Source: an uncultured Collinsella sp. (GTDB lineage Bacteria; Actinomycetota; Coriobacteriia; Coriobacteriales; Coriobacteriaceae). Taken from it: a stretch of 31,607 bases of DNA. Position 1 is the first letter of the stretch; each line of letters begins with the position of its first letter. Positions 946 through 28,865 of this stretch are shown one piece after another. The stretch spans positions 1 to 31,607 of the forward strand of contig CABUTH010000001.1 in NCBI GenBank assembly GCA_902494465.1, in the 5' to 3' direction. The notes beneath the pieces are model-generated. The model did not search any database, was not told the DNA's origin, and saw nothing but the letters and a program-made list of their open reading frames with translations. Made by a program: the position numbers and the translations under genes.

Positions 946-1085
946 TTACGGCGTTTTACCAAACGCCGTAACTGCTCGACGCTACAAACCCGCCAGAGCG
1001 GCAATCTGCCTTTCAACTTCGGCGGCATGACCAGAAGGTCAATGCCGCCTTGTTTCAAGGCACCTTGCTCGCTCTGGCGGGCTTT
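946..1085 (+). repeat. Composite stem-loop element, copy I (after pyrE)
   Basis: It begins at the base after the pyrE stop. Part 1 is an 11-bp hairpin (946-956/961-971) with loop TACC. A 6-nt gap then leads to GACGCTAC (978-985). Part 2 is a large hairpin: outer stem 989-999/1071-1081, a middle stem TGCCTT/AAGGCA, and an inner stem 1021-1032/1037-1049 with one bulged A, closed by AGAA. Copies II (8973-9113) and III (28679-28865) have the same plan with compensatory stem changes. No U-tract follows, so a plain intrinsic terminator is not supported. The interval 946-1288 holds this element and two more palindromes, and no gene. Confidence 0.85.
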
Positions 1086-1130
1086 CGCTATCGTTGCCAA
1101 GACATCGGCACTCCCGTTGCTGGCGATGCG

Positions 1131-1185
1131 GCACTTGGGGACGTTCCTGTTTGACTAGTCGTTTAAGAACGTCCCCAATGAGTGC
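1131..1185. repeat. GGGGACGTTC inverted repeat
   Basis: GCACTTGGGGACGTTC at 1131-1146 is answered by its imperfect inverted copy at 1167-1185, giving a hairpin with a 20-nt loop. The core GGGGACGTTC recurs downstream of composite element II (9162-9179) and III (28904-28928), so it appears to be part of a larger conserved arrangement. Confidence 0.6.
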
Positions 1186-1194
1186 CTGTAAAAT

Positions 1195-1258
1195 GAGCGT
1201 GGAAAATCTCCCGTTTTTGGGCCGCATGCAGGCTCAAAGTGGGAGATTGTCCACGCTC
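1195..1258. repeat. Palindromic element at the 3' side of the RpiR gene
   Basis: GAGCGTGG...AATCTCCC (1195-1212) pairs with GGGAGATT...CCACGCTC (1241-1258), with a weaker inner stem. The word CGTTATTTGAG occurs at 1258-1268 and again at 1287-1297, where it contains the stop codon of the minus-strand RpiR-type gene. The last two codons and stop of that gene therefore lie in repeated DNA. Confidence 0.6.
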
Positions 1259-1288
1259 GTTATTTGAGTGTCCAATAATCCACTCTCG

Positions 1289-2143
1289 TTATTTGAGCCC
1301 GGGCAGGCGGGTGTACGGGAACGAGCGCTCTAAGAACTCGGAGCAGCGGGCGTAATCTTTGGCAAAGTAGCTGCTATAGAGCGAATCGAGCACGTATTGC
1401 ACGGCGATGTGGCTGGCGAACTGCGTGATGCGATGCGTCATGCTCTCGTGATCGCTCACCGTGAGATAGGCGGCAAAGCCGGGGTGAATGCGGGCGCAGT
1501 ATGGGGTGCCGATGACGATGACCGGGACATGTCGACTGCTAAGGACCGGCAAGATTTCCTTGAGGTTGGGGGCAAGGCCGCTGTAGGAGATGACGATTGC
1601 CACATGGTCGGGACCCGAGGCGAGCGCCGTGCGCACCTGCGCCTCGACACTGTCGTGGCACGTCGCGCTTTTGCCGGACGAGAGCAGGCGGTCGCGGAAC
1701 ATTCCCGCTGGATACAGGTTATGTGAGCCCGTGTAGATGTCCACGGCGCCGGCGCGCATGACGAGCTTGGCGGCCTGGTCGAGCTGTGCGGGGTCGAGCA
1801 GCTCCTGCGTTTCGGCCAAAGTGGTCTGGTAGAGCCCCTCCATGCGCTCCATGACCTGCGCAGGGGTGGAGGTGGCATCGAAGGGAAAGTTGATGTCCAC
1901 GTCGCGCCGGTTGCCCGCCTCGGTCGCCTGGCGGATGAGCTCGACCTTGAGGTCTTTGAATCCCTCGAGGCCGAGCTTTTTGCAAAAGCGGTGCACGCTC
2001 GCGACCGAAACGTTGGCGCACGCGGCAAATTCCTTGATGGAGAGTCCGCGGACGTCTTCGCCCATGGCAAGGGCCGAGATGCCGAGCTGTTGCTCGGTAG
2101 GGGTAAGGCCCTGTGCCTCGGAAATCTTGCGTTTGATATCCAT
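1289..2143 (-). CDS. MurR/RpiR-family transcriptional regulator
   Basis: A 284-aa sugar-phosphate-responsive regulator. The first ~75 residues form the RpiR helix-turn-helix (LSIKEFAACANVSVASVHRF is the recognition region), followed by a SIS domain (about residues 120-250, with the VDIYTGSHNLYPAG sugar-phosphate-binding region and a later VIVISYSG stretch). The start at 2143 is preferred over an upstream in-frame codon because GGGAG lies 7 nt before this ATG. It follows the GH106-like glycosidase gene on the same strand with a 42-nt gap occupied by a palindromic repeat, so co-transcription and control of that locus are likely but inferred. The effector cannot be deduced. Confidence 0.85.
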   Translation of the reverse strand: MDIKRKISEAQGLTPTEQQLGISALAMGEDVRGLSIKEFAACANVSVASVHRFCKKLGLEGFKDLKVELIRQATEAGNRRDVDINFPFDATSTPAQVMERMEGLYQTTLAETQELLDPAQLDQAAKLVMRAGAVDIYTGSHNLYPAGMFRDRLLSSGKSATCHDSVEAQVRTALASGPDHVAIVISYSGLAPNLKEILPVLSSRHVPVIVIGTPYCARIHPGFAAYLTVSDHESMTHRITQFASHIAVQYVLDSLYSSYFAKDYARCSEFLERSFPYTRLPGLK

Positions 2144-2162
2144 GCGAACTCCCACACTCAAC

Positions 2163-2201
2163 AAACCTGCCAAAAAGGGACAGGTTTATTTTGGCAGGTT
2201 T
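2163..2201 (-). repeat. GGGACAGG-loop palindrome overlapping the glycosidase stop codon
   Basis: A perfect 13-bp inverted repeat (2163-2175/2189-2201) with a 13-nt loop. On the minus strand the right arm and loop encode the last residues N-L-P-K and the TAA stop of the glycosidase, so the element has supplied the 3' end of that gene. A copy sharing 30 identical bases lies in the opposite orientation at 5884-5913. Confidence 0.8.
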
Positions 2202-4753
2202 TGCCCGCAAAGGGTAACGGGACCGAGGATGCCGCTCGGGGCGATGGGTTCGGTGAGGGCGAAGATGTCGGGAATCGCATGATCGAGCGTGTTGATGATG
2301 TCGACGGTGAGTTCGTGCGTGCCGGCAGCAAGCGGGTTGATGGCAAAGCGATAGGGCGGACAGATGCGTGTGCCGAGCGGGTGTCCGTCGAGCGTAAGTG
2401 TCGCGACTTCGTAGACATCTCCCAGGTCGATTGTGGCATCGGCAAGGACGCTCGCCAGCTCGAACAACGTGCGATAGCGGAACGTCCCGCATGCATTGGG
2501 GAATCGCTCAGCCGTGAGATCGCACAAGTGCTCGAGTTCCTGCGGGGTGCCAAAGGTTTCGCCGCCGGCAGGGGAGAGGGCGACGGTCCAAGGGCCGTTG
2601 ATGTCGAGGGCGAGCGCATCGCTCGAGCCCATGTCCGCGCCGTCCCTGGACTCAAGCTCGCCGTCCGTCTCCAAGGCAACGAAGCAGCTCTCGAAGGGTG
2701 CGAGCTCAAGCGTTCCGTCAAACGCAACGGGATCGGTGCCGTTCAACAGGTCGAGGCGCGTGCCGCAAAGTCGCTCGCCCTGCGCGAGTTTAACTGTGCA
2801 GTCGATGCGCTCGTGCGGGTGTTCGTTGACCAGCATGACGTAGGTCTCGCCGGCGTGCTCGTAGCGAAGCGCGCGCAACCAGGGCTGGGGCGTGTCGGTG
2901 ACAACCGTCTGCAGCCCAACGCTCGCCAGCACGCCCGCCATATCGGCAAACGGAGTCGCTGCAAGTTCACCCAGTTCAACCACGCCATCGGCGTCGTAAA
3001 GCGCGCTCGGCACCTCGTCGACGGCGAGGACCATAACTCCCGCATCCATCATGCGCCTTGCGGCCTGCGCCGTCGCCGAGCCAATAAATGAAGCTCTTGG
3101 CATAACAAACGCCTGGTAACGACAATCGTTTACGGTAAGCATTCCATCGGCAATCGAAACCTCGTAACGGTCCTCATCCTCAAAAGCCTCGGCGGGCACA
3201 AAATCAAAGTCGATCTGCGCACGTGTGAGCTCGGCAGCCACGCGCTCGATAGGCATGGCGCTGCCGGCCCACTCGGCATCGGCGTGGTACAGGATGGCGA
3301 CGGGACGCGCGGCGCTGCCTCCCGAAAGCAGCGTTGCCGTACGGTTCATATAGCTCATGAGCTGCCCAAAGTGTGGCCACTGCGGATTGTTGCCGTGCGC
3401 GTAAAAGTGCGGCGGGCAGTCCCAATCGGGGAAGGGCGCCATGCTAAATGCGTGCGGCGTAAACCAGTTAATACCGCGGACGAGCATGTGGTCGGCGATC
3501 CATTTCATCTCGCGAAGGCCCTCGTGCCAGCCGAAGGCGCCAAAGACCTCGGCCATGCAGCGCCCCTGCTTTTTTGGGTCGAGACGTGCGGCCGAAGAGC
3601 TCAGCTTGGCAAGTGCGTAGGTAAAGAACTCCATGTTCCACGCGCCGTGGAAGTAGCTGTAGCGCCCGTGGTCGACGCCGGGGGCAAGCTGGTTGATGAC
3701 AACGTCGATGCCCGCCATATCTTGTCCGGCGACCGCGCGGAAGTAGTGCCCGGCGCCCTGGCCCAGGCGCGTGTGGCAGCTTTTGTCCTCAATCACATGC
3801 CCGATGTGCATGACGCCGTGCTCACGGCACCAGTCGCCGATCTGCTCGTCAAAGCAGGTGCGGTAGAGTTGCGTGGCAATGTCCATGTAGGTGTGACGGA
3901 CTCGGGCACCATCTGCCTCGCGTGTCCAAAGGCCGCGCAGCTCGGCAAACCAGCTCGCGCCCAACGCCTCGTGCAAACGGCTGGCAAGCTCGTCCGACCA
4001 CGGCAGCGCCAGGTCACCTCTTCCGATAAAGCTGCTGGTAGAGGCGTCGTCGAGGGTGGTTCCCTTCTCGTTCATAAAGCTGGGCTCATCGGTAAAGAAG
4101 CCCAGGATGGTGCGGCCGAATTCGTCGCCCAGGTGCTCAAACGTGGGCTCGTAGACGGTGTCGATCAGCACGCGGCACGAATCGGCGTCGACCATATTGA
4201 TGTACTCATCGCGAAAGTCGGTCTTTTGGCTGGTGAGGTAGAGCTCGACGGTGGCGATGCCGTCGGGGGCGTCAAAACGCAGGCGGGCGGGGGTGCCGTC
4301 GGCCTGCTCAACGGAGAGCTCAAGGTCGAGCGGTGCGCCGGCGGCGTCGAAAGTCGCCGCGCCCACAAAGCGCTCCGTGGGATCCATAAGATTGCCAAGC
4401 TTAATGACCGTGGACGGCTGGGGACCAACGACCGTAACCGTGCGATGTTTGAGCACGGTCTTCCTAAGCGCGGGGTCGACGTTCTCGCCCGCAAGCGCGC
4501 CGTTGGTGTAGCCCGTGGGGAAATGGGCGTCGTCGAGTAGCCAGATCTTCAACCCCAAGCGCTTGCACTCGCCGATGATAAAACGCAGGTCAGCCCACCA
4601 GCCGTCGCGACAAAACTCGGGATGCGTGCGCGATTCGAGGCAGATCTCGCGGATGTCCGCACCGGCAATCTGCTCCAAGTATTCGGTAATCGTCTCGTGC
4701 GCCTCGCCCTTGAGCCACAAGAACGGAAGCACATGGTTGTCGTATGCCGCCAT
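2186..4753 (-). CDS. GH106-like glycoside hydrolase (putative alpha-L-rhamnosidase-like)
   Basis: An 855-aa cytosolic enzyme with no signal peptide. The N-terminal half reads like the TIM-barrel of GH106-type hydrolases: HVLPFLWLKG, then REICLESRTHPEF and GLKIWLLDDAHFPTGY, a later GFFTDEPSF with acidic residues, and HIGHVIEDKSC. A middle region (about 500-660) carries VAILYHADAEW, typical of the family's accessory fold. The C-terminal ~120 residues form a galactose-binding-like beta-sandwich (FRYRTLFEL, DLGDVYEVATLTLDG, PYRFAIN). The ATG at 4753 has GAGGAG 5 nt upstream; a GTG two codons earlier is too close to it. Divergent from an AraC regulator, and followed by an RpiR regulator. Substrate is uncertain; GH106 is a fold-level call made from remembered family patterns. 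Confidence 0.65.
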   Translation of the reverse strand: MAAYDNHVLPFLWLKGEAHETITEYLEQIAGADIREICLESRTHPEFCRDGWWADLRFIIGECKRLGLKIWLLDDAHFPTGYTNGALAGENVDPALRKTVLKHRTVTVVGPQPSTVIKLGNLMDPTERFVGAATFDAAGAPLDLELSVEQADGTPARLRFDAPDGIATVELYLTSQKTDFRDEYINMVDADSCRVLIDTVYEPTFEHLGDEFGRTILGFFTDEPSFMNEKGTTLDDASTSSFIGRGDLALPWSDELASRLHEALGASWFAELRGLWTREADGARVRHTYMDIATQLYRTCFDEQIGDWCREHGVMHIGHVIEDKSCHTRLGQGAGHYFRAVAGQDMAGIDVVINQLAPGVDHGRYSYFHGAWNMEFFTYALAKLSSSAARLDPKKQGRCMAEVFGAFGWHEGLREMKWIADHMLVRGINWFTPHAFSMAPFPDWDCPPHFYAHGNNPQWPHFGQLMSYMNRTATLLSGGSAARPVAILYHADAEWAGSAMPIERVAAELTRAQIDFDFVPAEAFEDEDRYEVSIADGMLTVNDCRYQAFVMPRASFIGSATAQAARRMMDAGVMVLAVDEVPSALYDADGVVELGELAATPFADMAGVLASVGLQTVVTDTPQPWLRALRYEHAGETYVMLVNEHPHERIDCTVKLAQGERLCGTRLDLLNGTDPVAFDGTLELAPFESCFVALETDGELESRDGADMGSSDALALDINGPWTVALSPAGGETFGTPQELEHLCDLTAERFPNACGTFRYRTLFELASVLADATIDLGDVYEVATLTLDGHPLGTRICPPYRFAINPLAAGTHELTVDIINTLDHAIPDIFALTEPIAPSGILGPVTLCGQNLPK

Positions 4754-4869
4754 ATCCACTCCTCTAAAACCAACCTTTTAAATCGATTGAAGTCAGAGTA
4801 CGCCGAGCGCGCCGTCCTGCTAATATCAAAACCACAGCAGAATATGACCGAATCAACGATTGTGATGCC
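4754..4869. promoter_or_regulatory. Divergent control region between glycosidase and AraC genes
   Basis: A 116-nt gap separates the two divergently read starts. It is more AT-rich than the flanking genes and contains a TAATAT -10-like word (4821-4826), but no convincing -35 box at the right distance on either strand. AraC-family activators usually bind in such gaps; no operator repeat could be singled out. Confidence 0.3.
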
Positions 4870-7498
<2,629 letters not shown>

Positions 7499-7533
7499 TC
7501 GACAATATGAGTGCCACCGGGGAAAAGCGTTGG

Positions 7534-7560
7534 GATGGGCTCGCGATTCGAGTCCCCATC
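7534..7560 (+). terminator. Weak stem-loop downstream of the GH1 gene
   Basis: GATGGG (7534-7539) can pair with CCCATC (7555-7560), extended by CTCG/CGAG across a bulge. Only a short T-poor stretch follows, so termination here is uncertain. A promoter for the next gene begins immediately downstream. Confidence 0.3.
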
Positions 7561-7589
7561 TTAGCATTTGAACCATTTGGCACTATAAT
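7561..7589 (+). promoter_or_regulatory. Sigma-70-type promoter for the PTS IIA gene
   Basis: A perfect TATAAT (7584-7589) is preceded, after a 17-nt spacer, by TTAGCA (7561-7566; 4 of 6 matches to TTGACA). Transcription would begin about 40 nt upstream of the IIA start codon. Confidence 0.6.
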
Positions 7590-7638
7590 CACCATAGGCA
7601 TGCGCATAACGTTGCGCTTAATCAAGAGGAGAAAACGT

Positions 7639-8175: not shown

Positions 8176-8198
8176 ACTGCGACATCCAAAGGATGTGC

Positions 8199-8230
8199 AA
8201 AGGTGGTCGGGTTTTCCGGCCACCTTTTTT
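8199..8230 (+). terminator. Rho-independent terminator after the PTS IIA gene
   Basis: A 12-bp stem (8199-8210/8216-8227, one G-U pair) with loop GTTTT, followed by a T-run to 8230. A textbook intrinsic terminator 23 nt after the stop. Confidence 0.9.
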
Positions 8231-8316
8231 ATTGCACCGCGGGGAAGCGTTTTATTGCACGTTGGGCGGGCTTGCAAACCGTTCGGACGCTAAAACGAAC
8301 CGACCGCGCCTTCGCG

Positions 8317-8346
8317 TTGCCGAGGGTGTTCATAAGTGGATAGTAT
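8317..8346 (+). promoter_or_regulatory. Candidate promoter for the lipoprotein gene
   Basis: TTGCCG (8317-8322), an 18-nt spacer and TAGTAT (8341-8346). It lies 65 nt before the start codon in an otherwise featureless gap (8231-8411). Matches are moderate, so this is tentative. Confidence 0.35.
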
Positions 8347-8411
8347 GGGCTTACTTATTACAACGTGCGCCGCGTCTGGGAAGCGCGGTGCCGCTCATTG
8401 GGAGGAACAAC

Positions 8412-8969
8412 ATGAAAAAGAAGCTGCTGCTTGCGCCCCTCATGGCCGTCTTGGTTGCATGCGTGGTCGTGCTTTCCGGTTGTGGAGGCCCTTCGATCGA
8501 GGAACTCATCACCGAGGATCTTACGACTCAGTTTGACGAGGTCAAGAACGGTGGCGACGAGTTCCTTTCTGGTCTGGAGGAGGCTTCGGGCGACGAGTTC
8601 GAGCAGCTGGGTATCGATCCCAAGGAGTATGCCAAGACCTATCTCGAAGGCTTTGACTACGAGATCGGCGACGTGACGGTCGACGAGGACAAGGGTGTCG
8701 CGACCGCCGAGGTCTCCATCACCTGCAAGTCCATGAACAAGATTGTCGAGGACTTCTCCACCCAGTATCAGGAGAAGGTTGCCGCGCTTGATGCGGTTCC
8801 TTCCGATGACGAGCTGTACAAGATGGCAGGTCAGGTTATGGTCGATGTGACCAAGGCCACCGAGCCCAGGAAGACCACGGTTATCTTCAAGTACACCTGC
8901 AACGACGACGGCGAGTGGTCTGCCGATGACTCCGTCAACTCCGAGATGATGGATGCAATGCTGAGCTAG
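8412..8969 (+). CDS. Small secreted lipoprotein of unknown function
   Basis: A 185-aa product with a type II signal peptide: MKKK, a hydrophobic stretch, and the lipobox LSGC, so Cys24 should be lipidated and the protein anchored to the outer face of the membrane. The mature part is acidic and helical at first (ELITEDLTTQFDEVKNGGDEF), then holds a beta-rich segment (YEIGDVTVDEDKGVATAEVSITC) recalling DUF4878/DUF5105-type domains of Gram-positive lipoproteins. I recognise the style but not a specific family. GGGAGGAAC precedes the ATG at 8412. Single gene between a terminator and composite repeat element II, which starts 4 nt after its stop. Confidence 0.85.
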   Translation: MKKKLLLAPLMAVLVACVVVLSGCGGPSIEELITEDLTTQFDEVKNGGDEFLSGLEEASGDEFEQLGIDPKEYAKTYLEGFDYEIGDVTVDEDKGVATAEVSITCKSMNKIVEDFSTQYQEKVAALDAVPSDDELYKMAGQVMVDVTKATEPRKTTVIFKYTCNDDGEWSADDSVNSEMMDAMLS

Positions 8970-8972: not shown

Positions 8973-9113
8973 GTTGCGGCGTTTTACCAAACGCCGCAAC
9001 TGCTCGACGCTGCGCGGGCACCAGAGCGACAACTTGTCATTCAAAGAGGACGGCATGACCAGAAGGTCTATGCCGTCCTCTTTTCATGCCAATTTGTTCG
9101 CTCTGGTGCCCGC
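8973..9113 (+). repeat. Composite stem-loop element, copy II (after the lipoprotein gene)
   Basis: Small hairpin 8973-8984/8989-9000 (12 bp, loop TACC), 6-nt gap after the conserved core, GACGCTGC (9006-9013), then the large hairpin with outer stem 9014-9027/9100-9113 (14 bp) and inner stem 9043-9060/9065-9083 closed by AGAA. Against copy I the outer stem reads GGGCACCAGAGC instead of CCCGCCAGAGC with matching changes on the other strand, and the inner stem is lengthened on both sides. The 487-nt gap 8970-9456 contains this element, a GGGGAC remnant and the triple palindrome, and no gene. Confidence 0.85.
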
Positions 9114-9161
9114 TCGCTGTCCGTCCTCTACCTGCGGCGTTGTCATGGTAGTCATTGGGGC

Positions 9162-9179
9162 GGCACTTGGGGACGTTCC
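9162..9179 (+). repeat. GGGGACGTTC element downstream of copy II
   Basis: GGCACTTGGGGACGTTCC matches the left arm of the 1131-1185 palindrome. It lacks the inverted partner. It is preceded by GTAGTCATTGGGG (9148-9160), a string also found at 28901-28913 after copy III, and another GGGGAC lies near 9195. Confidence 0.5.
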
Positions 9180-9246
9180 TTTTCTGCCGGCAGTCGGGGA
9201 CACTCTTTGGGCGCGGTTGGTGCATTGGCGTCGCATCGGGTGGTCG

Positions 9247-11265: not shown

Positions 11266-11306
11266 ATCGAAAACTCCAATCGTGGGTGGAATTATATGGG
11301 TGAGGC

Positions 11307-11344
11307 GCAGCGTCGACCGGTCCGCCGTTCGTTAGAACGGCGGA
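11307..11344 (-). repeat. Hairpin-N6-GACGCTGC module between hypD and hypE
   Basis: On the minus strand a 10-bp hairpin (11344-11335/11330-11321, loop TAAC) starts 5 nt after the hypD stop and is followed by 6 nt and then GACGCTGC (11314-11307). The hairpin is identical to the one at 28729-28752 in the same sense. It lies inside an operon, between a stop and the next start, so it must be read through by transcription of hypE. Confidence 0.75.
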
Positions 11345-11349
11345 ACCCA

Positions 11350-12462
11350 TTAGCCTCGGTAGCGGAAATATGCTGCGCAGCTGCCTTCGGAGCTCACCAT
11401 GCAGGGGCCGATGGGATGCTCGGGTGTACAAGCGTGGCCGAACAGAGGGCAGTCGCTCGGCGTAATGGCTCCGCGCAACACGTCGCCGCAGCGGCATCCG
11501 CGTGGCTCGACCGTCGGCTCGATGGACACGTCAAAGCGCATGCTGGCATCAAAGTGCGAAAACTCGGGACGAATGGCGAGTCCCGAAGCCGCAATCGATC
11601 CCAGCCCGCGCCACGTGGTATCGCACGGCTCAAATACCTGCTCGACCAGCTGGCGCGCCACAGGATTGCCGTCGGCATTGACGCCGCGACGGTAGGCGTT
11701 GTCGATCGCGGGCTGCCCCTCAACAACCATCTGGACCAGCATGCAGATGCCCTGCAAGATGTCGACCGGTTCAAATCCCGTAACCACGCCCGGGGTCTTA
11801 AACTCGTCGACCAAAAAGCTAAAGGGCGCCAAACCCGTGATAGTGGCGACGTGGCCCGGCAGGATAAAGCCGTCGATAGTGGTCTCGGGATCGTTGGCGA
11901 TAGCGCGCAGCGCCGGCGGCGTGGTCTTATGGGCGCAGTAGACCGAGAAGTTCTGCAGCCCGCGTGCGTCTGCCTCCAGGATGGCGGCGGCGATGGTGGG
12001 CGTTGTGGTCTCAAAGCCCACACCCATAAAGATGACCGGGCGGTCGGGGTTTTGCTCAGCGATGTCGAGTGCGTCGAGTGGTGAGTAGACGATGCGGATG
12101 TCGCGCCCTGCCGCCTTTTGCGCGGCGAGTGAGGTGGACGATCCGGGAACGCGCATCATATCGCCAAAGGTGGTGATGATGGCGCCGTCTATGTTGGCGA
12201 GCGCGATTGCATGGTCTATATCGCGGTTGGCGGTAACGCAGACGGGGCAACCCGGGCCGCTCAGCAGCTTGAGTCCCGCCGGCATAATGGAGCGAAAGCC
12301 ATAGCGACCGATGCTCACGGTGTGCGTGCCGCAGACTTCCATAAGGTTGATGGTGCGGTTGCCGACGAGTTCACGGATGCGTTCGGTGAGCTCGCGGGCC
12401 AGCTTGGAATCGCGAAATGCCGAAAAGTCGATACCGGAGCGAGCCGGCTGTCCGGCCGCCAC
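11350..12462 (-). CDS. hypD: Hydrogenase maturation protein HypD
   Basis: Iron-sulfur scaffold on which the Fe(CN)2CO unit is assembled together with HypC and HypE. The 370-aa product carries the family motifs CGTHT, GPGCPVCVT, FMGVGFETTTPT, and CAHKTTPPAL, and the C-terminal cysteine group that binds a [4Fe-4S] cluster (CRCGDVL, SDCPLFGHAC, GPCMVSSEGSC). A GTG start at 12462 is chosen because it overlaps the hypC stop in TAGTG, giving translational coupling; the frame stays open upstream through hypC but has no sensible start or homology there. Ends 5 nt before a palindromic module that precedes hypE. Confidence 0.95.
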   Translation of the reverse strand: MAAGQPARSGIDFSAFRDSKLARELTERIRELVGNRTINLMEVCGTHTVSIGRYGFRSIMPAGLKLLSGPGCPVCVTANRDIDHAIALANIDGAIITTFGDMMRVPGSSTSLAAQKAAGRDIRIVYSPLDALDIAEQNPDRPVIFMGVGFETTTPTIAAAILEADARGLQNFSVYCAHKTTPPALRAIANDPETTIDGFILPGHVATITGLAPFSFLVDEFKTPGVVTGFEPVDILQGICMLVQMVVEGQPAIDNAYRRGVNADGNPVARQLVEQVFEPCDTTWRGLGSIAASGLAIRPEFSHFDASMRFDVSIEPTVEPRGCRCGDVLRGAITPSDCPLFGHACTPEHPIGPCMVSSEGSCAAYFRYRG

Positions 12463-12855: not shown

Positions 12856-15321
12856 CTACTGTGATGCGATCTGCGCGAGGTGGGCGCGCGCGATCGCCGC
12901 CTGACCGTAGGCGATGCAGCCGTCGTTGACGGGTACGGAGTGGGGAACCAAGACAGTAAGACCCCTGCTTTTGAGCTCGCGGGTGAGGAGCTGGAGCAAA
13001 AGTCGGTTCATGAACACGCCGCCCGAGAGCGCGACGGTGTCGAGGCCTTCACGGGCGCAGATCTCGCTGACGATGCGTGCCGACGCGTGTGCGATGGTGA
13101 CGTGGAAGTCGAGCGCGAGCCTGCCGGCGGGCACGCCGGCCCTGGTTCCCTCCAAAAGCGCCTTAATAAGCGGTCTGGAGTTCAGAACATGGCAGTCGTC
13201 CGGACGGGATGATTCGGTTACGGAAAAGCTGGCCATATTGTCGGTGGGACAGGTGCTTTCGCTGTCGAGCGCGTGCCAGGCGGCTGCTTCAAGCTCGATG
13301 GCGGGTTCACCCTCGTAGGTCGCCTGGCCGCAAATGCCCAGGATCGCGGCTGCGGCATCAAACAAGCGACCCATACTGCTGGTGCGCGGGCTGTTGATGC
13401 CGCGTTCGATCATCGTTGCCGTCACGCTACGTGTTTGCTCGTCTAGGCCGCCCAAGAGCCGCTCGGCGCCCGGGTGTTCAAGCAGGCCGAGCTCACTGAG
13501 CAGGGCAAAGGCGTTGCGGCGGGCGTCACGCACGGAGGCCGCCCCGCCGGGGAGCGCCCAGGTGCGCAAATGCGCGGCGCGCTCAAAGCCGCCAAGGCTG
13601 GCAACAAGAAACTCGCCGCCCCAAATGGTCCCATCGGTGCCGGCGCCGGTGCCGTCAAAGGCGATGCCAAGGACGCGCGCGTCGGTTGTAAGCTGGCCCG
13701 CGGCGATAGCCTCGGCCATTACGCTCGCGATATGCGCATGATGGTGCTGCACCTCGACGAGCGGCAGATTGCATTTTCGCGCCTGCTCGCGCGCCCACTG
13801 GCTCGATAGATAGCTGGGGTGTAAATCGCAGGCCAAGGCGGCAGGCGCCAAGTCAAAGAGATCTTCCAAGCGCGTGCGCGCGGCGTTCCAGGCATCGAAG
13901 GTCCCGCCGTTTTCAACATCGCCGATATGCTGCGACACAAAACAGGCTGCCTCGCCGCTCGCGTCCTCGCGCGTGAATGCGATCGTTGCCTTTTGCTGTG
14001 GCCCGCAAGCGAGCGTGCAGGGCGCAGCGCCGTTGAGCGCCGGCAACGACAACGGTCGCGGCGCATATCCGCGTGCGCGACGCACAGGCATGACGGTGCC
14101 GTCGACCACACGTACCACGGAGTCGTCGTAGCGCGAGAGAATCGCGCGGTCGTTGCCGAGCAGCGCATCGGCGATGCCGGGGGCAACGAGGTGTTCCCAA
14201 GCGAGGCCGTCATCAGTTTCGATAGGTTCCTCGCTCAGGTTTCCGCTGGTCATGACCAGCGCGTGCATGTCATGCGACGCGGCCGCGGCGAGCAGTAAAT
14301 GTTGAAGCGGGGTGTAGGGGAGCATGACGCCGAGCTCGGGTAAATCGTGCGCGACGGATGGCGCGAGTGTAAGGGCGTCGGGGGAATCTCCCTCGCCAAC
14401 AGCACGCCGGCGCAACAGCACGATGGGGCGGATGCTGCCGGTTAGCAAGCCACGCTCGGCGTCGTCGACATGGCACAGGCGTTCAGTGTCGGCAAGGCTG
14501 CGCACCATAACGGCAAGCGGCTTGTTGCTGCGGCGCTTGCGACGGCGCAGCTCGACCACCGCCTGCTCATTGGCGGCGTTGCAGGCCAGATGGAATCCGC
14601 CCAGGCCCTTGATGGCGACAATACCGCCGCTGGCCAGCAGCTCAACACAGCGGTCGATAATGGCATCGCTGGTTTCGCGCGTGCTGCCGACGGCTGGCGT
14701 CGCCCCCGGGCCTTCGGGCCCCATGTCGCCCGCCGCCTCGCGCCAGGTAATATGTGGCCCGCAGTCAAAGCAGGCATCGGGCTGCGCATGAAAGCGCCGG
14801 TCAAGCGGGTCGCCATACTCTGCGGCGCACTCGGGGCACATGGGAAAGCAATCCATCGACGTGGCCGCTCGGTCATAAGGCAGCGACCGGATGATGGTAA
14901 AGCGCGGCCCGCAGTTGGTGCAGTTGATAAAGGGGTAGTGAAAGCGTCGGTCGGCGGGGTCGAACAGTTCGCGCAGACAGTCGTCACAGGTGGCGATATC
15001 GGGGGAGATGAGCGTCGTGTGCATGGTCTGATCCTGCGACGCTACGATGCGAAAGGCCTGCTCATCGTCGGCATCCCAAGCGTCGGGCTCCAGGTCTGCG
15101 ACAGCGACATGCTCAACGCGGGCCGCGGCAGGCGCGTGCTCAGAAAGCGCGGTGACAAAGCCGTCGAGTGCCTCGACCGAAGCATGCGCCTCGATGTGCA
15201 CGCCATCGCCCGCGTTGAGCACCCAGCCGCAGATGCCATGCGCCATAGCCTCGCGATACACAAATGGCCGCATGCCAACGCCCTGCACGATGCCCGTCAC
15301 ATGAATATGCACATGCCGCAT
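12856..15321 (-). CDS. hypF: Carbamoyltransferase HypF
   Basis: Converts carbamoyl phosphate and ATP to carbamoyl-AMP and transfers the carbamoyl group to HypE. The 821-aa protein has all expected domains in order: acylphosphatase (GIVQGVGMRPFVYREA, ~1-90), two zinc-finger-like segments (CDDCLRELFDP..., CTNCGPRFT, CPECAAEYGDP, CFDCGP, ~105-190), a YrdC-like domain (IVAIKGLGGFHLACNA, ~220-400), and a Kae1/TobZ-like domain with the metal-binding HHHAHIASVMAE and the nucleotide-binding LSGGVFMN. The ATG at 15321 is preferred to one five codons upstream because GGGGAG stands just before it. It begins 29 nt after nikR, so the two are probably co-transcribed. Confidence 0.97.
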   Translation of the reverse strand: MRHVHIHVTGIVQGVGMRPFVYREAMAHGICGWVLNAGDGVHIEAHASVEALDGFVTALSEHAPAAARVEHVAVADLEPDAWDADDEQAFRIVASQDQTMHTTLISPDIATCDDCLRELFDPADRRFHYPFINCTNCGPRFTIIRSLPYDRAATSMDCFPMCPECAAEYGDPLDRRFHAQPDACFDCGPHITWREAAGDMGPEGPGATPAVGSTRETSDAIIDRCVELLASGGIVAIKGLGGFHLACNAANEQAVVELRRRKRRSNKPLAVMVRSLADTERLCHVDDAERGLLTGSIRPIVLLRRRAVGEGDSPDALTLAPSVAHDLPELGVMLPYTPLQHLLLAAAASHDMHALVMTSGNLSEEPIETDDGLAWEHLVAPGIADALLGNDRAILSRYDDSVVRVVDGTVMPVRRARGYAPRPLSLPALNGAAPCTLACGPQQKATIAFTREDASGEAACFVSQHIGDVENGGTFDAWNAARTRLEDLFDLAPAALACDLHPSYLSSQWAREQARKCNLPLVEVQHHHAHIASVMAEAIAAGQLTTDARVLGIAFDGTGAGTDGTIWGGEFLVASLGGFERAAHLRTWALPGGAASVRDARRNAFALLSELGLLEHPGAERLLGGLDEQTRSVTATMIERGINSPRTSSMGRLFDAAAAILGICGQATYEGEPAIELEAAAWHALDSESTCPTDNMASFSVTESSRPDDCHVLNSRPLIKALLEGTRAGVPAGRLALDFHVTIAHASARIVSEICAREGLDTVALSGGVFMNRLLLQLLTRELKSRGLTVLVPHSVPVNDGCIAYGQAAIARAHLAQIASQ

Positions 15322-19591: not shown

Positions 19592-19635
19592 ACACCTAGG
19601 TTTACAGCTGTCTTGTCAGCTGTAAACCTAGGTGT
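19592..19635 (+). promoter_or_regulatory. Palindromic operator of the nad operon (probable NiaR site)
   Basis: A perfect 19-bp inverted repeat (19592-19610 and 19617-19635) around the 6-nt centre TCTTGT. It overlaps the -35 box and spacer of the nadA promoter. Because the last gene of the operon encodes NiaR, the niacin-responsive repressor, this is the natural operator. Perfect arms of this length and the absence of a following T-run argue against a terminator. Confidence 0.75.
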
Positions 19636-22137: not shown

Positions 22138-22998
22138 ATGAATCCCATTACCATGAAGCTCGTCGTCGATGATCTGATTCTGCAGGCTCTGCGCGAGGAC
22201 ATTACCTTTGAGGACGTGAGCACGGCGAGCGTGTGTCCCACGGCGCGTCCCGCCACGGTGGAGCTTATCGCCAAGGCCGATGGCATCATCGCCGGCTTGG
22301 ATGTGTTTGCCCGCACCTTTGAGCTGCTGGATTCGCAGAGCTCGGTGCTGCTCGACGTTGCCGATGGCGACGAGGTGCACGCCGGCGACCATGTGGGTCA
22401 GGTGCGCGGCGATGCGCGCGTGCTGCTTTCGGGCGAACGCGTGGCACTCAACTACCTGCAGCGCATGAGCGGCATCGCTACCTACACGCACAGCATGGCC
22501 GCGGCGCTCGAGGGAACCAAGACCGTGCTCGTCGACACGCGCAAGACCACGCCGGGCATGCGCGTGTTTGAGAAGGCGGCGGTCGAGATCGGCGGCGGCA
22601 GCAACCACCGCTACAACCTGTCGACAGCCGTCATGCTCAAGGACAACCACATCGATGCCGCCGGTGGCGTGACGCGCGCGATCGAGATGGCGCGCGCCCA
22701 TGCGTCGTTTACCACGACGGTCGAGATTGAGTGCGAGAACCTGGACATGGTACGCGAAGCCGTGGAGGCCGGTGCCGACATTATCATGCTCGACAACATG
22801 ACCCATGACGACATGGCTGCCGCGATTGAGCTTATCGCCGGTCGCGCCAAGACCGAGTGCTCGGGCAACGTGGACGCCAGCAATATCCGTGCACTCGCCG
22901 ACCTGGGCGTTGACTTTATTAGCTCGGGGGCGCTGACGCACTCTGCGCCGATTCTCGACCTCTCGCTTAAGCACCTGCGTCTGCTGGACGGTAAATAA
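22138..22998 (+). CDS. nadC: Nicotinate-nucleotide pyrophosphorylase (carboxylating)
   Basis: Converts quinolinate and PRPP to nicotinate mononucleotide and CO2. The 286-aa enzyme shows the N-terminal REDITFEDVST, the GERVALNYLQRMSGIAT core, the active-site DTRKTTPGMR with substrate-binding Arg and Lys, GGGSNHRYNLSTAVMLKDNHI, and a late SGNVDASNIRALADLGVDFISSGALTHS, all diagnostic. Starts 3 nt after nadB and ends in TAATG, overlapping the niaR start by one base. Third gene of the NAD operon. Confidence 0.97.
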   Translation: MNPITMKLVVDDLILQALREDITFEDVSTASVCPTARPATVELIAKADGIIAGLDVFARTFELLDSQSSVLLDVADGDEVHAGDHVGQVRGDARVLLSGERVALNYLQRMSGIATYTHSMAAALEGTKTVLVDTRKTTPGMRVFEKAAVEIGGGSNHRYNLSTAVMLKDNHIDAAGGVTRAIEMARAHASFTTTVEIECENLDMVREAVEAGADIIMLDNMTHDDMAAAIELIAGRAKTECSGNVDASNIRALADLGVDFISSGALTHSAPILDLSLKHLRLLDGK

Positions 22999-23543
22999 TG
23001 GACGCCCGCGAGCGTCGCCGTGCCATCATGGGCGTGCTCGAGCGAGCCAAGGGCCCCGTCTCCGGCAGCGCACTTGCTCGTGAGGTGGGTGTGAGCCGCC
23101 AGATTGTCGTGCAAGACATCGCCCTGCTGCGCGCCGATGGGCACGATATCGTGGCGACCAATCGCGGCTACGTGCTGCAGGAGGCCCCCAGCAGCCCCGC
23201 TGTGCCCACACGCTTGGTCAAGGTTCGCCACGGCGTGGAGCAGGCAGGCGATGAGCTTACGAGTATCGTCGACGCCGGAGGCGCCGTGCTCAACGTGATC
23301 GTCAATCACCGCGTGTACGGTAAGATCACGGCCGACCTGGACATCCGCAATCGTCGCGATGTTGAGCGCTACCTGCACGATATCGAGAGCGGCAAGAGTT
23401 TCCCGCTGCTAACGGTGACGAGCGGCTATCACTTCCATCGCATCGCGGCGGAGGACGAGCAAACCCTCGACGAGATCGAGGCGATGCTCAAGGAGAAAGG
23501 CTACCTAGCAGACCTCATGCCTTACGAGGACGATCTATCGTAG
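22998..23543 (+). CDS. niaR: Niacin-responsive transcriptional repressor NiaR (HTH + 3H domain)
   Basis: A 181-aa regulator of NAD synthesis and niacin salvage. The N-terminal ~60 residues form a winged helix of the HTH_11 type (SALAREVGVSRQIVVQDIALLRADG), and the rest is a 3H domain named for its conserved histidines, seen in VNHRVYGKI, YLHDIESG and GYHFHRI. In characterised members nicotinate is the co-repressor. Its ATG overlaps the nadC stop, so it is made with the enzymes it probably represses, a feedback arrangement matching the palindrome at 19592-19635. Its TAG stop abuts a truncated copy of the composite repeat, then a strong terminator. Confidence 0.92.
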   Translation: MDARERRRAIMGVLERAKGPVSGSALAREVGVSRQIVVQDIALLRADGHDIVATNRGYVLQEAPSSPAVPTRLVKVRHGVEQAGDELTSIVDAGGAVLNVIVNHRVYGKITADLDIRNRRDVERYLHDIESGKSFPLLTVTSGYHFHRIAAEDEQTLDEIEAMLKEKGYLADLMPYEDDLS

Positions 23544-23581
23544 CCGACGCTGCAAACGCCCTTAAGCGGCAATCTGCAGCG
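23544..23581 (+). repeat. Truncated copy of the composite stem-loop element
   Basis: GACGCTGC at 23546-23553 and a 13-base string AGCGGCAATCTGC (23565-23577), identical to copies I and III, lie at the same relative spacing, but the small hairpin and the distal half of the large hairpin are missing. The remainder folds into its own hairpin, CGCTGCA (23549-23555) with TGCAGCG (23575-23581). It begins right at the niaR stop. Confidence 0.6.
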
Positions 23582-23599
23582 GTGCCAAATTAGTTATCC

Positions 23600-23648
23600 G
23601 CACAAAAAAGGAGGCCTCCGCGGCGATGCGGAAGCCTCCTTTTTGTGC
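23600..23648. terminator. Bidirectional terminator between niaR and the ferredoxin gene
   Basis: A long stem (23600-23621/23628-23648, one mismatch and one bulged A) with a 6-nt loop. The A-run on the left and T-run on the right allow it to end transcription of the nad operon rightward and of the ferredoxin gene leftward. Confidence 0.9.
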
Positions 23649-23682
23649 ACGGTGTACTTTTGAGTGCGCAGTGGGGGAGTTG

Positions 23683-23868
23683 TTACTCCTCGACGATCTC
23701 GGTGATCGCGCCGGCGGGGCAAGCGTCCTGGCAAGCGCCACAGGCGACGCAGGAGTCCTCGTCAGCGACGGTAGCGACGTCCTGGAGCTCCAGAACGCCA
23801 GCGGGGCAGGAGTCGACGCAAACGCCACAAGCGATGCACTCGTCGGCATCAATTACGGGATGAGCCAT
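23683..23868 (-). CDS. 2[4Fe-4S] bacterial-type ferredoxin
   Basis: A 61-aa acidic electron carrier. Two clostridial-type cluster motifs are visible, CIACGVCVDSCP and CVACGACQDACP, in the tandem arrangement of the family, and the C-terminus is acidic (EIVEE). Such ferredoxins serve pyruvate:ferredoxin oxidoreductase and hydrogenases in anaerobes. The ATG at 23868 follows GAGG by 8 nt; an upstream in-frame extension has no family similarity. Monocistronic, transcribed toward the bidirectional terminator. The functional link to the hyp operon in this window is plausible but unproven. Confidence 0.95.
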   Translation of the reverse strand: MAHPVIDADECIACGVCVDSCPAGVLELQDVATVADEDSCVACGACQDACPAGAITEIVEE

Positions 23869-24092
23869 GGTAGTTTCCTCTCTGTTGACCGACGCTACAG
23901 GCGATGCGCGCCGGTTTGATTCGGGCAAAAACATACCACGGGAGCGACCGTTTGCAATACCCTCTGGCCGGCATCTTCATACCGTTCGCCGAGTATGCCG
24001 CGGCTTACTAAAAAACATGCAGGTGAGGCCGTTGAGCTGCGCAAATGTTAGCTATAGGTGACTTGAAATATAGGGCGATTGAGCGTGCTTGC

Positions 24093-24137
24093 GGAACTCG
24101 CATCCCGTAATCCACGTCCAAAACGGGACACAGTTTC
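24093..24137. repeat. Solitary member of the 46-bp palindrome family
   Basis: GGAAC.CGCATCCCG ... CGGGACAC.GTTTC, the same plan and nearly the same length as the three tandem units at 9247-9415, but with weaker arms. Confidence 0.6.
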
Positions 24138-24213
24138 AGGCTCGCGCCTCAGTTAACTCTACATAGATCTCAATAGATCTGCCGAGAACTCAAACAGTGT
24201 ATCTACCTGCGCA

Positions 24214-24235
24214 TTTGAGAACCTAAACTCTCAGA
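24214..24235 (+). promoter_or_regulatory. HAIR-like imperfect inverted repeat before dnaK
   Basis: TTTGAGA (24214-24220), 8 nt, TCTCAGA (24229-24235), plus a half-site ACTCAAA at 24188-24194. HspR binds HAIR sites of the form CTTGAGT-N7-ACTCAAG; this match is partial in both sequence and spacing. It is offered only because hspR closes the operon. Confidence 0.35.
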
Positions 24236-24377
24236 GATAAGAAATCTTATATGAATTGACTTAGATTTTGTATATTCCGGCCCATAAGGGGATACACTAC
24301 ATCCTGAAAGACAAGCCGAAACACCGCTCGGCAGACCGCCGAGTCGGTGCAAACGCACAAGAGAGAGGGAATTTCTA

Positions 24378-26270
<1,893 letters not shown>

Positions 26271-26272
26271 TC

Positions 26273-27115
26273 ATGTCCGCCCGTAAAGCTCGCACGGAGG
26301 CGGCCGCCGCTGGCGCCGCCCCCGTTGACTCTGAGGAGAAGGACGTGAAGATTCCCGTAGGGGCCGTTGACGATACCGAGGCCAACGAGGCCCCGGCCGC
26401 CGAGGCTGCCGAGAACCAGGTAGAGGATTCCAACAAGGAGGCGACGATGACCGAGGACGAGATGGTGGAAGCCGCTATCCGCGCCGGTGAAGAAGCCGCC
26501 GACAACGACTTTAAGCTCAAGTTCGAGCAGGCCCAGAAGGAGCTTGCCGACGTGCGCCATGAGCTCGATGCTGCGGCAGAGGCTCAGAAGGCCGCCGAGG
26601 ACAAGGCAAAGGACGCCACGGAGCGTACCGCCCGTCTGCAGGCCGACTGGGAGAACTTCCGTCGCCGCACCGCCAACGAGCGCATTGGCGAGCGCGAGCG
26701 CGCGACCGAGAAGCTTGTCACCGCGCTGTTGCCGGTGATCGATGATATCGAGCGCGCGATCGACCATGCCCGTAGCCAGGAGCTTTCCGACGACTTTAAG
26801 CAGTTCGTCGACGGCGTCGACGCGGTGCATGCCAAGCTGCTCGATGTGTTTGCGCACGAGGGCGTTGAGCCCATCGACCCCAAGGGCGAGGCGTTCGATC
26901 CGCTCGAGCACCAGGCCGTGGGTCGCGTCGAGGACGCGTCGCAGTACGACGAGACCGTCAACGACGTGTACCAGAAGGGCTACCGCATGGCGGACCGCAT
27001 CCTGCGTTCCGCGATGGTGACGGTGACCTACGGTGGCGAGAAGCGCCCCGCACCGGAGCCCGAAGCGGCGCCCGAGGATGCTACGGCCGATACGGCCGAG
27101 AGCACCGAGGAGTAA
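26273..27115 (+). CDS. grpE: Nucleotide exchange factor GrpE
   Basis: Releases ADP from DnaK. The long 280-aa form has an Ala/Glu-rich, disordered-looking N-terminus (~1-85), the long coiled-coil (LKFEQAQKELADVRHELDAAAEAQKAAED...), the GrpE core RLQADWENFRRRTANER, ALLPVIDDIERAI, and the beta domain with FDPLEHQAV and GYRMADRILRSAMVTVTYG. Family members are usually about 200 aa. Two in-frame internal codons have better ribosome-binding sites than the first ATG: GTG at 26345 (GGAGAAGGAC) and ATG at 26447 (AAGGAGG, 5 nt), so shorter forms of 256 or 222 aa are possible. A hairpin follows the stop. Confidence 0.95.
   Translation: MSARKARTEAAAAGAAPVDSEEKDVKIPVGAVDDTEANEAPAAEAAENQVEDSNKEATMTEDEMVEAAIRAGEEAADNDFKLKFEQAQKELADVRHELDAAAEAQKAAEDKAKDATERTARLQADWENFRRRTANERIGERERATEKLVTALLPVIDDIERAIDHARSQELSDDFKQFVDGVDAVHAKLLDVFAHEGVEPIDPKGEAFDPLEHQAVGRVEDASQYDETVNDVYQKGYRMADRILRSAMVTVTYGGEKRPAPEPEAAPEDATADTAESTEE
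26435..26449 (+). promoter_or_regulatory. Strong internal ribosome-binding site in grpE
   Basis: AAGGAGG (26435-26441), 5 nt, ATG (26447-26449, codon 59 of grpE, in frame). It is the best Shine-Dalgarno match in the operon. Initiation here would give a 222-aa GrpE of near-normal length. Confidence 0.55.
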
Positions 27116-27120
27116 TTGAG

Positions 27121-27152
27121 AAGGGCCCCGGGGCAACACCCGGGGCCCTTTC
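27121..27152 (+). terminator. Stem-loop between grpE and dnaJ, possible partial terminator
   Basis: A perfect 12-bp, very GC-rich stem (27121-27132/27139-27150) with loop GCAACA and a short T-run (27149-27151). It may attenuate transcription so that dnaJ and hspR are made at lower levels than dnaK and grpE, or act as an mRNA processing site. Confidence 0.65.
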
Positions 27153-27223
27153 TGACCAAGTGCCATATGACAGCATGAGCCGCCGTCCTCAGGGGCGGCG
27201 GATGTAACAGGAGAGGAGCTACG

Positions 27224-28189
27224 ATGGCTGCAGGCAAAACCTTCTATGACATCCTGGGCGTATCCAAGAGCGCCTCCGACAAAGAGATCAAGAGCGCGTT
27301 TCGCAAGCTCGCGCAAAAATATCACCCCGATGCCGGCGGCGACGAGGCCAAGTTCAAGGAGATCAGCGAGGCCTACGAGACGCTTTCGGACGAGAAGAAG
27401 CGCAAAGAGTACGACCAGATGCTCATGTTTGGCGGTATGCCGGGCGCAGGCGGCGCGTATGGCGGCGGCTACGGTGCCGGCGCGGGTGCCAGCGGCTGGG
27501 GCGACATCTTCGACAGCATCTTTAGCGGCAACGGTGCCTGGGGTAGCGATTGGGGCTCGGGCTTTGCCGGGGCTGCGGGCGCTGCCGGTGCCGGCGCGGG
27601 TCGCAGCCGCGCTCGCAAGGGCGGCGACCTGTCGTTGACTGTCGACGTAACGGCCGAGGATGCGTTCCGCGGCGTGACGCACAAGGTCACCTACCGCATT
27701 CCCTCGACAGGCGAGCAGCAGACCATCACGGTCTCGGTGCCTGCGGGTGCGGTCGACGGCGGCAAGCTGCGCTACAAGCGTCGCGGCGAGTATGGCGTTG
27801 CGGGTGGCGAGCGCGGCGACCTGGTCGTGACCACGCATGTGGAGGAGCACCCGCTGTTTAAGCGCAAAGGCGCCGACGTGACCATGGAGGTACCGGTCTC
27901 GGTCTACGAGGCGGCGCTCGGCTGCACGGTGGACGTGCCGACGCCCGGCGGTGCGACGGTTCGTCTGAAGGTGCCCGCGGGTACCCAGACGGGCAAGAAG
28001 TTCCGCTTTAAGGAGATGGGCGCGCCCGACGTTAAGCACCGTGGCCGTACGGGCGCGCTGCTCGTCGAGATCAAGGTGCAGGTTCCCACGAACCTGTCCG
28101 ACGATGAGCGCGATGCCATGACCAGGCTGCGCGAGGCCGACACGCGCGATTATCGCGAGAAGGTCAACCGTTACAAGGCGACGTACTAG
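27224..28189 (+). CDS. dnaJ: DnaJ-type co-chaperone lacking the zinc-finger domain
   Basis: Stimulates the DnaK ATPase and delivers substrates. The 321-aa product has a J domain with the HPD motif at residues 34-36 (KYHPDAGGD), a long Gly/Ala-rich linker (~70-125, [15 protein letters not shown]...), then the two C-terminal beta domains ([67 protein letters not shown]). The four CxxCxGxG zinc repeats of classical DnaJ are absent, so it is a type II (CbpA-like) protein although it occupies the dnaJ position of the operon. GAGGAG lies 5 nt before the ATG. Confidence 0.93.
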
Positions 28190-28261
28190 GGCGGTCGTGG
28201 CGCACGCCCGCGCCCGCGGGCTTATGATGGACGATAACGAGACGGAAAGGGGTCAGGTAGC

Positions 28262-28678
28262 ATGGCCGAGGACAATAGGAACAAACCGCTGTACATGATC
28301 AGCGTGGCGGCCGAGCTGACCGGCATGCACCCGCAGACTCTGCGCGTCTACGAGTCCAAAGGCTTGGTGAATCCCCAGCGCTCGGGCGGCAACACGCGTC
28401 TGTATTCGCGTGCCGATATCGAGCGCCTGGAGCTCATCAACCAACTGACCGACGAGGGCATCAACCTCGCCGGCGTGGTGCGCATCCTCGATATGAAGGA
28501 GCGTGCCGAGGAGCGCGAACGCGAGAACGAGAAGCTCCGCGCCCGCGTACGCCAGCTCGAGGACGAGCTGCACGAGTACAAGATGCAAAAGAAGATCACC
28601 GCCCTGGCCCCGCGCGACGGCTCAGTTAACCCCGAGCAAGTCATGCGCAAGCTGCTGGGCGCCGGCGGGGATTTGTAG
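28262..28678 (+). CDS. hspR: Heat-shock repressor HspR (MerR family)
   Basis: A 138-aa repressor of the dnaK operon in Actinobacteria and relatives; it binds HAIR operators and is thought to use DnaK as co-repressor. The MerR winged helix spans about residues 10-80 (MISVAAELTGMHPQTLRVYESKGLVNPQRSGGNTRLYSRADIERL), followed by a charged coiled-coil (KERAEERERENEKLRARVRQLEDELHEYK) for dimerisation. Last gene of the operon, 72 nt after dnaJ. The stop TAG directly abuts composite repeat element III. A HAIR-like site upstream of dnaK is only partial. Confidence 0.93.
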   Translation: MAEDNRNKPLYMISVAAELTGMHPQTLRVYESKGLVNPQRSGGNTRLYSRADIERLELINQLTDEGINLAGVVRILDMKERAEERERENEKLRARVRQLEDELHEYKMQKKITALAPRDGSVNPEQVMRKLLGAGGDL

Positions 28679-28865
28679 TTACGCGGTTTTACCAAACCGC
28701 GTAACGGGCCGACGCTGCGCCCTTAGGTTCCGCCGTTCTAACGAACGGCGGACCAGTTGACGCTGCAAGCCCGCCAGAGCGGCAATCTGCCTTTCAACTT
28801 CGGCGGCATGATCAAAAGATCAATGCCGCCTTGTTTCAAGGCACCTTGCTCGCTCTGGCGGGCTT
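28679..28865 (+). repeat. Composite stem-loop element, copy III (after hspR), with an extra module
   Basis: Small hairpin 1 (28679-28689/28694-28704, 11 bp, loop TACC), 6 nt, GACGCTGC (28711-28718); small hairpin 2 (28729-28738/28743-28752, 10 bp, loop TAAC), 6 nt, GACGCTGC (28759-28766); then the large hairpin with outer stem 28767-28780/28852-28865 (14 bp) and inner stem 28802-28813/28818-28830 closed by AAAA with one bulged A. The loop-proximal pairs read GATC/GATC where copies I and II have GACC/GGTC. The 425-nt gap 28679-29103 contains this element, the GGGGACGTTC repeat and the leader of the next gene. Confidence 0.87.

Follow-up and report, generated by a model that had tools for sequence, protein, structure and literature searches.

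The window analyzed here, a 31,607-nucleotide (nt) stretch of DNA from an uncultured Collinsella sp. (contig CABUTH010000001.1 of GenBank assembly GCA_902494465.1, positions 1 to 31,607), carries three copies of a composite palindromic element, each made up of a small hairpin, a short linker, and a longer rod-like palindrome, at the ends of pyrE, a gene at 8193-8969, and hspR. An earlier note on this DNA had proposed these three gene-end copies; read directly from the letters they are real, and they exceed chance. The copies were scored with cmsearch using a hairpin model (R1) and a rod model (R2), and the R1 scores of the window copies are partly a matter of construction because those copies helped build R1. 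The features of the element in the window are as follows.

943-945, plus strand: stop codon TAG of pyrE (NCBIfam TIGR00336), ahead of copy 1
945..972, plus strand: hairpin 1 of copy 1, after pyrE, its first G being the final base of the stop TAG (R1 match 945-986, 65.6 bits)
977..1089, plus strand: motif CGACGCTAC and type A rod of copy 1, terminal letters TTTCGCT (R2, 123.6 bits)
8967-8969, plus strand: stop codon TAG of the gene at 8193-8969, ahead of copy 2
8973..9000, plus strand: hairpin 1 of copy 2, 3 nt past the stop TAG (R1, 67.3 bits)
9005..9118, plus strand: CGACGCTGC and type B rod of copy 2 (R2, 118.4 bits; 52 bits on the minus strand)
9115..9142 (ends approximate), plus strand: tail of copy 2, CGCTGTCCGTCCTCTACCTGCGGCGTTG, read from the letters
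11306..11346, minus strand: hairpin-only copy with CGACGCTGC and no rod, between hypD (stop 11350-11352) and hypE (R1, 56.6 bits)
23545..23577, plus strand: decayed copy with CGACGCTGC and the 5' part of a rod, no hairpin 1 (by eye; repeat family D3)
28678..28705, plus strand: hairpin 1 of copy 3, after hspR (NF047375), overlapping the stop TAG at 28676-28678 (R1, 67.6 bits)
28727..28754, plus strand: second, tandem hairpin 1 of copy 3, of GTTCCGCCG type (R1 match 28727-28767, 52.9 bits)
28758..28870, plus strand: type A rod of copy 3 (R2, 130.8 bits)

The tandem hairpin unit of copy 3, with 49 nt from first to second hairpin, was missing from the earlier note, and the gene that follows this copy encodes an aconitase-family hydratase. 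The gene ahead of copy 2, previously labelled a lipoprotein gene, matched nothing in Pfam or NCBIfam at E 1e-5, and the decayed copy begins 1 nt after the stop TAG (23541-23543) of a gene with 3H and helix-turn-helix (HTH) domains (22998-23543).

Across copies, the order of parts is the stop codon, a 12-bp hairpin, 3-5 nt, the nearly invariant linker YCGACGCTGC, a rod of ~100 nt, and a TCGCT tail. Hairpin 1 reads GTTACGCGG-TTT-TACC-AAA-CCGCGTAAC or a variant of it, with 12 pairs and a first G that often doubles as the final base of the stop; there are several hairpin types, and the rods are of types A, B, C, and D-like. Measured from the hairpin start, the tail motif comes at 136-142 nt in 146 of 172 copies and is lacking from that range in 26 (a count that omits nine chance or other-repeat hits and 12 copies cut by locus ends). 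The second palindrome had been described as a branched hairpin, a description that the consensus structure does not bear out: it is one nested stack, i.e., an unbranched rod with internal loops and bulges. Pairing of the tail to the linker (GCGGCGTTG with CGACGCTGC) was seen by eye in Collinsella tails, and we make no claim on it because the linker hardly varies and the Eggerthellaceae tails examined are without it. Separately, at several Collinsella loci (L009, L161, L172, L202, L204, and L256) the element comes after a shared non-coding leader, TTTAGGAG...TCAAGGTACCAAACT or a variant of it, which showed no Rfam match in L009 and L256.

The element is abundant in relatives. Copy 1 alone gave 33 BLAST matches in the nearest genome compared, C. 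aerofaciens TSDC17.2-1.1 (G001), with a best E of 3e-60 (some being the same places on the other strand), and R1 found 27 matches above 38 bits there plus weak reverse-strand echoes. Among 58 relatives, 26 had R1 matches, and all but one of these belong to the genus (25 of 35 genus genomes; per-genome counts in this set include other-strand matches of the palindromic hairpin, e.g., 34 versus 27 in G001). Class-wide, with at most 21 candidates scored per genome, 75 of 296 Coriobacteriia genomes had matches, all 75 in families f1 and f2, which bears out the expectation of further copies in related genomes; the named genera among the matches listed (80 loci) were Collinsella, Gordonibacter, Slackia, Parvibacter, and other Eggerthellaceae. 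The locus set used below comprises these 80 loci and further loci of the same scan, up to L266, with 78 loci and the window as input for the R1 search and 99 loci and the window for the R2 search. A phage or plasmid origin was considered and rejected: the exact hairpin had no match in a viral contig collection, copy 1 had no DNA match in phages, and only one "plasmid" record matched, which is in fact a C. aerofaciens replicon of 900 kb.

The stems covary while the loops stay constant, as had been proposed from the window, where the stem changes among copies are compensatory; wider alignments agree. In hairpin 1 the 12 pairs are 99.3% paired, with double changes at 5 pairs, and in the rod 39 pairs (RNAalifold) have 95.9% of cells paired, with double changes at 22, against 3-7 for slid partners. 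These alignments hold 26 hairpin rows and 27 rod rows, and relatedness is a concern for their counts because all rows stem from two close genomes. A tree-aware count over 80 rods from several genera (the distinct rows among 120 in alignment A6, after duplicates, lower-scoring reverse overlaps, and rows <100 nt were dropped) recovered 146 branch-level double changes that keep pairing, spread over 35 of the 39 pairs, versus a mean of 8.2 and a maximum of 22 for permuted partners (200 permutations) and 4-8 for slid partners. This tree-aware covariation is strong but not final, because the structure had guided the alignment and because rods exchange blocks, which violates the assumption of a tree. 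A rod model trained on G001 and the window only matched Slackia and Eggerthellaceae rods at E<1e-4. Paired changes could also be a mutational by-product, template switching between the arms keeping palindromes perfect without selection, which would account for double changes arising in one step and for long, near-perfect stems. However, such switching would also erase mismatches, whereas the internal loops are found at recurring positions and are polarized to one strand; the fixed span and the stop anchoring would need another cause, and the mismatches and loop letters conserved across families disfavor it as sole cause, so that we regard this account as quite unlikely.

For position relative to genes, we collected 193 copies (215 pattern hits minus duplicates and copies <100 nt from a locus start), nine of which were judged to be a different repeat or palindromes arising by chance within genes (L076 twice, L148, L158, L167, L186, L241, L248, and window position 12987 on the minus strand) and were kept in the denominator. 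The called upstream gene was in sense orientation at 169 copies and antisense at 13, with none called at 11 (thus 169 of 182 with an upstream gene are sense). In 141 of the 193, the stop of the sense gene ended -10 to +3 nt from the hairpin start (observed range -10 to +1), with a mode at +1 (46 copies), at which the G of TAG also opens the hairpin. TAG was the stop in 101 of the 141 anchored genes versus 550 of 1,058 called genes, an excess that is at least partly forced because the stop overlaps the hairpin. A control repeat, TTGGGGAC[AG]TTC, had 77 sites in the same loci, 60 with a sense gene upstream and none of the 60 near a stop, but it is biased, since loci selected for carrying the element often have their stop taken up by it. 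In 400 kb of unselected sequence it had 1 usable site, also not near a stop, which makes it a weak control. In the unselected 400 kb itself, four of 6 pattern hairpins lay within 3 nt of a called stop, and the other two follow genes that our calls missed and whose ends, in the NCBI annotation, are 2-4 nt away. Of 346 gene ends there, no more than 14 have a perfect stop-adjacent hairpin of at least 9 bp, 5 of them being this element under a strict rule. According to the NCBI annotation of the C. aerofaciens record, rpoC, tyrS, lysS, queA, lacB, and others end at most 5 nt from the hairpin, and further hosts on the same replicon encode a DAHP synthase, a hexose kinase, an SDR oxidoreductase, an M20 peptidase, and a D-2-hydroxyacid dehydrogenase, while proB has the rod only. 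That host genes are unrelated, as was suspected from the window, holds widely: 59 upstream gene families were counted among 155 copies.

A location at gene ends is also what would be expected if hairpin 1 and/or the rod tip terminated transcription, and the type B inner rod hairpin is followed by TTTTTC, while in some element-free relatives in the genus the corresponding gene end bears a hairpin with a U-tract (L108, L109, L141; by eye). Yet hairpin 1 has no U-tract, none follows the rod tip in the Eggerthellaceae rods examined, and the start of the next gene can come within ~40 nt of the tail, so that a terminator is in our view unlikely. Canonical terminators followed 3 of 5 elements versus 56 of 156 other gene ends (spacers >100 nt, 400 kb), a very small sample in which substitution of the element for terminators, judged on only 5 elements, is unsupported. 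We consider it highly improbable that the element regulates the next gene, by attenuation or translational control: the element and its tail do reach the ribosome-binding site of the next gene in some loci of G052 and of Gordonibacter (L065, L073, L148), but the host genes are unrelated and 65 of 161 called downstream genes are convergent.

A role at the gene end is suggested by stop anchoring and by an orientation that is sense in most copies. Our preferred reading, to which we assign a probability of roughly 0.4, is a dispersed gene-end repeat family akin to repetitive extragenic palindromes (REPs) and bacterial interspersed mosaic elements (BIMEs), found here only in Coriobacteriia among the matches listed, and kept for an effect at the message end. 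Hairpin 1 would lie within reach of the ribosome as the stop codon enters the A site and might slow termination or stall ribosomes, by analogy with Escherichia coli, for which the portion of PMC12306157 consulted counts 446 of 4,072 REPs within 15 nt of a stop and states, citing a primary study, that a REP <16 nt from a stop can reduce translation and cause ribosomes to stall. The rod, in turn, might block 3'-to-5' decay or serve as a processing site, and gene conversion or transfer might overwrite one copy with another, the invariant loops perhaps serving as breakpoints.

Different versions of the element are present at orthologous gene ends. At pyrE, 26 readable loci comprised 16 with the element, 1 with a remnant, and 9 with none (4 of 30, L088, L091, L092, and L094, were unreadable at the expected place and left out), and at hspR, 27 readable loci comprised 12 with the element, 6 with remnants, and 9 with none (L117, L123, and L129 being left out of 30 on the same ground); both tallies were made by eye, and the element-free loci are all among the lower-scoring gene matches. 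In the element-bearing loci plus the window (n=13 for hspR, n=17 for pyrE), the 3'-terminal 399 nt of the gene had a median identity of 95.6% at hspR and 95.2% at pyrE, and the 175 nt past the gene 71.8% and 71.0%, with gaps counted; with gaps left out, the element had 82.5% and 85.0%, and the gene 95.6% and 95.5%. Identity falls below that of the gene because hairpin types and rod types alternate, that is, versions have been exchanged. Hybrids with mismatched outer arms occur at L007 and L014, and near-identical rods stand at different genes within one genome.

The main alternative is mobile or parasitic palindromic DNA, whose bottom strand would be recognized as a folded single strand, perhaps by a REP-associated tyrosine transposase (RAYT) acting in trans; stop adjacency would then reflect insertion preference plus purifying selection, and orientation would be a by-product. 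We hold this to be a credible possibility, somewhat less likely than the preferred reading. Near-identical rods at different genes, and differing versions and hybrids at fixed sites, are consistent with it, as is the patchy distribution within one genus, 10 of the 35 genus genomes having no match. Against it, an orientation that is mostly sense is not given by random insertion, the viral and phage searches found nothing, and at ygeW-arcC, where three genomes have the element and six others examined do not, the spacer differs throughout and an empty-site comparison revealed no insertion boundary, the spacer being replaced rather than cleanly split. An IS200-like TnpA element lies inside the type C rod of a stop-adjacent copy (L268, 1203-2110).

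The search for a partner protein covered two families, PF01797 and the integron integrase model TIGR02249. PF01797, which covers RAYT and IS200 transposases, has a gene in 37 of 43 genus genomes, and in 25 of 25 element-bearing versus 5 of 10 element-free genus genomes (Fisher p 0.0008), a co-occurrence that leaves a RAYT link plausible but may stem from shared ancestry, the element-rich genomes being mostly close relatives. Among 20 PF01797 loci examined with ~1.5 kb on each side, the element flanks none of the genes except at L268, via the IS200-like insertion. The RAYT-like genes of L282 and L285 are flanked by GTAGCTAATTTGGGACGGGGCTTTTTTAGCTAC-type repeats that are unrelated to the gene-end element.

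Several observations weigh against retention for an effect on the message, the co-occurrence with PF01797 among them, and others concern the strand. The opposite strand folds to a lower energy in 128 of 130 distinct rods (by a median of 10 kcal/mol) and in 44 of 66 hairpins, and with DNA parameters the bottom strand is lower in 121 of 127 rods, as the mobile-DNA alternative would have it. The reason lies in the rod mismatches, most of which set pyrimidine against pyrimidine on the gene strand: in gene-strand letters, the symmetric internal loops of the bottom-strand fold hold 528 C-T, 112 C-C, and 10 T-T mismatches (650 together), versus 12 between purines (5 A-G, 4 G-G, and 3 A-A), 30 G-T, and 1 C-G, and the gene-strand fold has 339 C-T, 120 C-C, 34 T-T, and 114 A-C, with 2 A-G, 5 G-G, and 2 A-A. 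G-U exceeds A-C in hairpin 1 stems (20 versus 8) and is not in excess in rod stems (93 versus 85, in 85 distinct rows of the 120 in A6 after duplicates and overlapping lower-scoring reverse reads were dropped). It is mainly because of this strand polarity that we did not settle on an RNA-only reading. In addition, some copies follow terminator-like T-tracts or non-coding DNA (L008, L167, L168, L186, L241, L198, L170), and one rod stands 5 nt after RNase P RNA (L011); these cases count against the reading because a ribosome mechanism leaves them unexplained. The earlier note had entertained a structured RNA, a mobile palindrome, and a nucleoid or polymerase site; any of these may still apply, with anchoring and sense orientation favoring a gene-end role.

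A further idea, which we think rather improbable, is a Coriobacteriia-specific, exchangeable gene-end cassette, whose template strand would fold via recurrent G-A mismatches into the rod and be read, as single-stranded DNA or antisense RNA, by a putative enzyme that places and replaces versions precisely at gene ends, outside the described RAYT/REP, IS200, and integron arrangements. Whichever account applies, the element is structured, abundant, and carried by common bacteria of the human gut, and it occupies the stops of core genes (rpoC, tyrS, and lysS, for example). Were it to act on termination or at the ends of messages, as in our preferred reading, it would form a genome-wide post-transcriptional layer in Coriobacteriia; if an enzyme places it, that enzyme would target gene ends. 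The swaps of versions between near-identical gene neighbors are a natural experiment for either reading.

The element is not the only repeat in its surroundings. Each composite copy in the window is trailed by a different repeat with TTGGGGACGTTC (1128-1191, 9160-9193, and 28895-28934, with an inverted partner after copy 1), and repeats of this type follow many of the Collinsella composites examined. An inverted repeat pair with GGGACAGGTTTATTTTGGCAGG (2165-2202 and 5876-5913; 38 nt, 95%) likely represents a further REP-type family, a similar string following pyrE in L106, and GGACAGGCACCTTTGTGGTGGT-like repeats occur as inverted copies near both window ends (151-172 and 31537-31558). A 26-bp near-perfect inverted repeat at 31416-31487, 11 nt past the aconitase-family gene, is terminator-like, and 19592-19635 holds a perfect 19-bp inverted repeat, ACACCTAGGTTTACAGCTG, with a 6-nt center.

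How the element compares with known systems can be set out family by family. Enterobacterial repetitive intergenic consensus (ERIC) sequences, or intergenic repeat units (IRU), and similar enterobacterial repeats are ~127 bp long and form long hairpins near gene ends; likened by this general description only, the element differs in the hairpin at the stop codon, which belongs to the Coriobacteriia unit. Integron attC sites lie after stop codons, keep structure while sequence varies, fold better on the bottom strand, and have single-base bulges, and the element resembles them in all four respects. We nevertheless rejected attC, given that the element stands beside housekeeping genes in place, its ends do not match the core-site boxes, and an integron integrase over the TIGR02249 cut-off was found in none of the 43 genus genomes (14 control genomes also had none, so this search lacks a positive control).

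The earlier note knew of no named family with this plan, and Rfam agrees: the window has no match at gathering score, and searches at E up to 10 gave sub-threshold matches only, with best E values of 0.22 (around copy 1) and 0.44 (around copy 3). Collinsella-1 RNA (RF01700; PMC2864571, in the part consulted) comes from the same host group; the window does not match it at gathering score, and the surroundings of copies 1 and 3 do not at E up to 10. No published description of the element was found among papers judged by title or opening of the abstract, and the portions of PMC12306157, PMC2864571, PMC8040213, and PMC3733652 consulted do not describe it. CGTC REPs, as portrayed in part of PMC3733652, are likewise short palindromes with no dedicated transposase, and the bottom strand of the element's linker contains CGTC; however, their stem has 8-9 bp and a first pair A-T, versus 12 bp and G-C here (168 of 173), and here CGTC lies off the stem, with a 3-5 nt gap to the motif, on which grounds this candidate was rejected. 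The invariant GTAG that accompanies the REP/BIME palindromes of enterobacteria and pseudomonads was not found either (position -3 G 30%, -1 A 50%, in 141 copies). Compared with those GTAG REPs, the element is without the tag and does not flank RAYT genes, and it is a fixed composite of a hairpin and a ~100-nt rod, mostly in one orientation and with most copies on the stop. It is like them in being dispersed, intergenic, palindromic, and downstream of coding regions, and it shows the broad hallmarks of REP-like repeats, i.e., many intergenic copies beside unrelated genes, an imperfect palindrome, and covarying stems.

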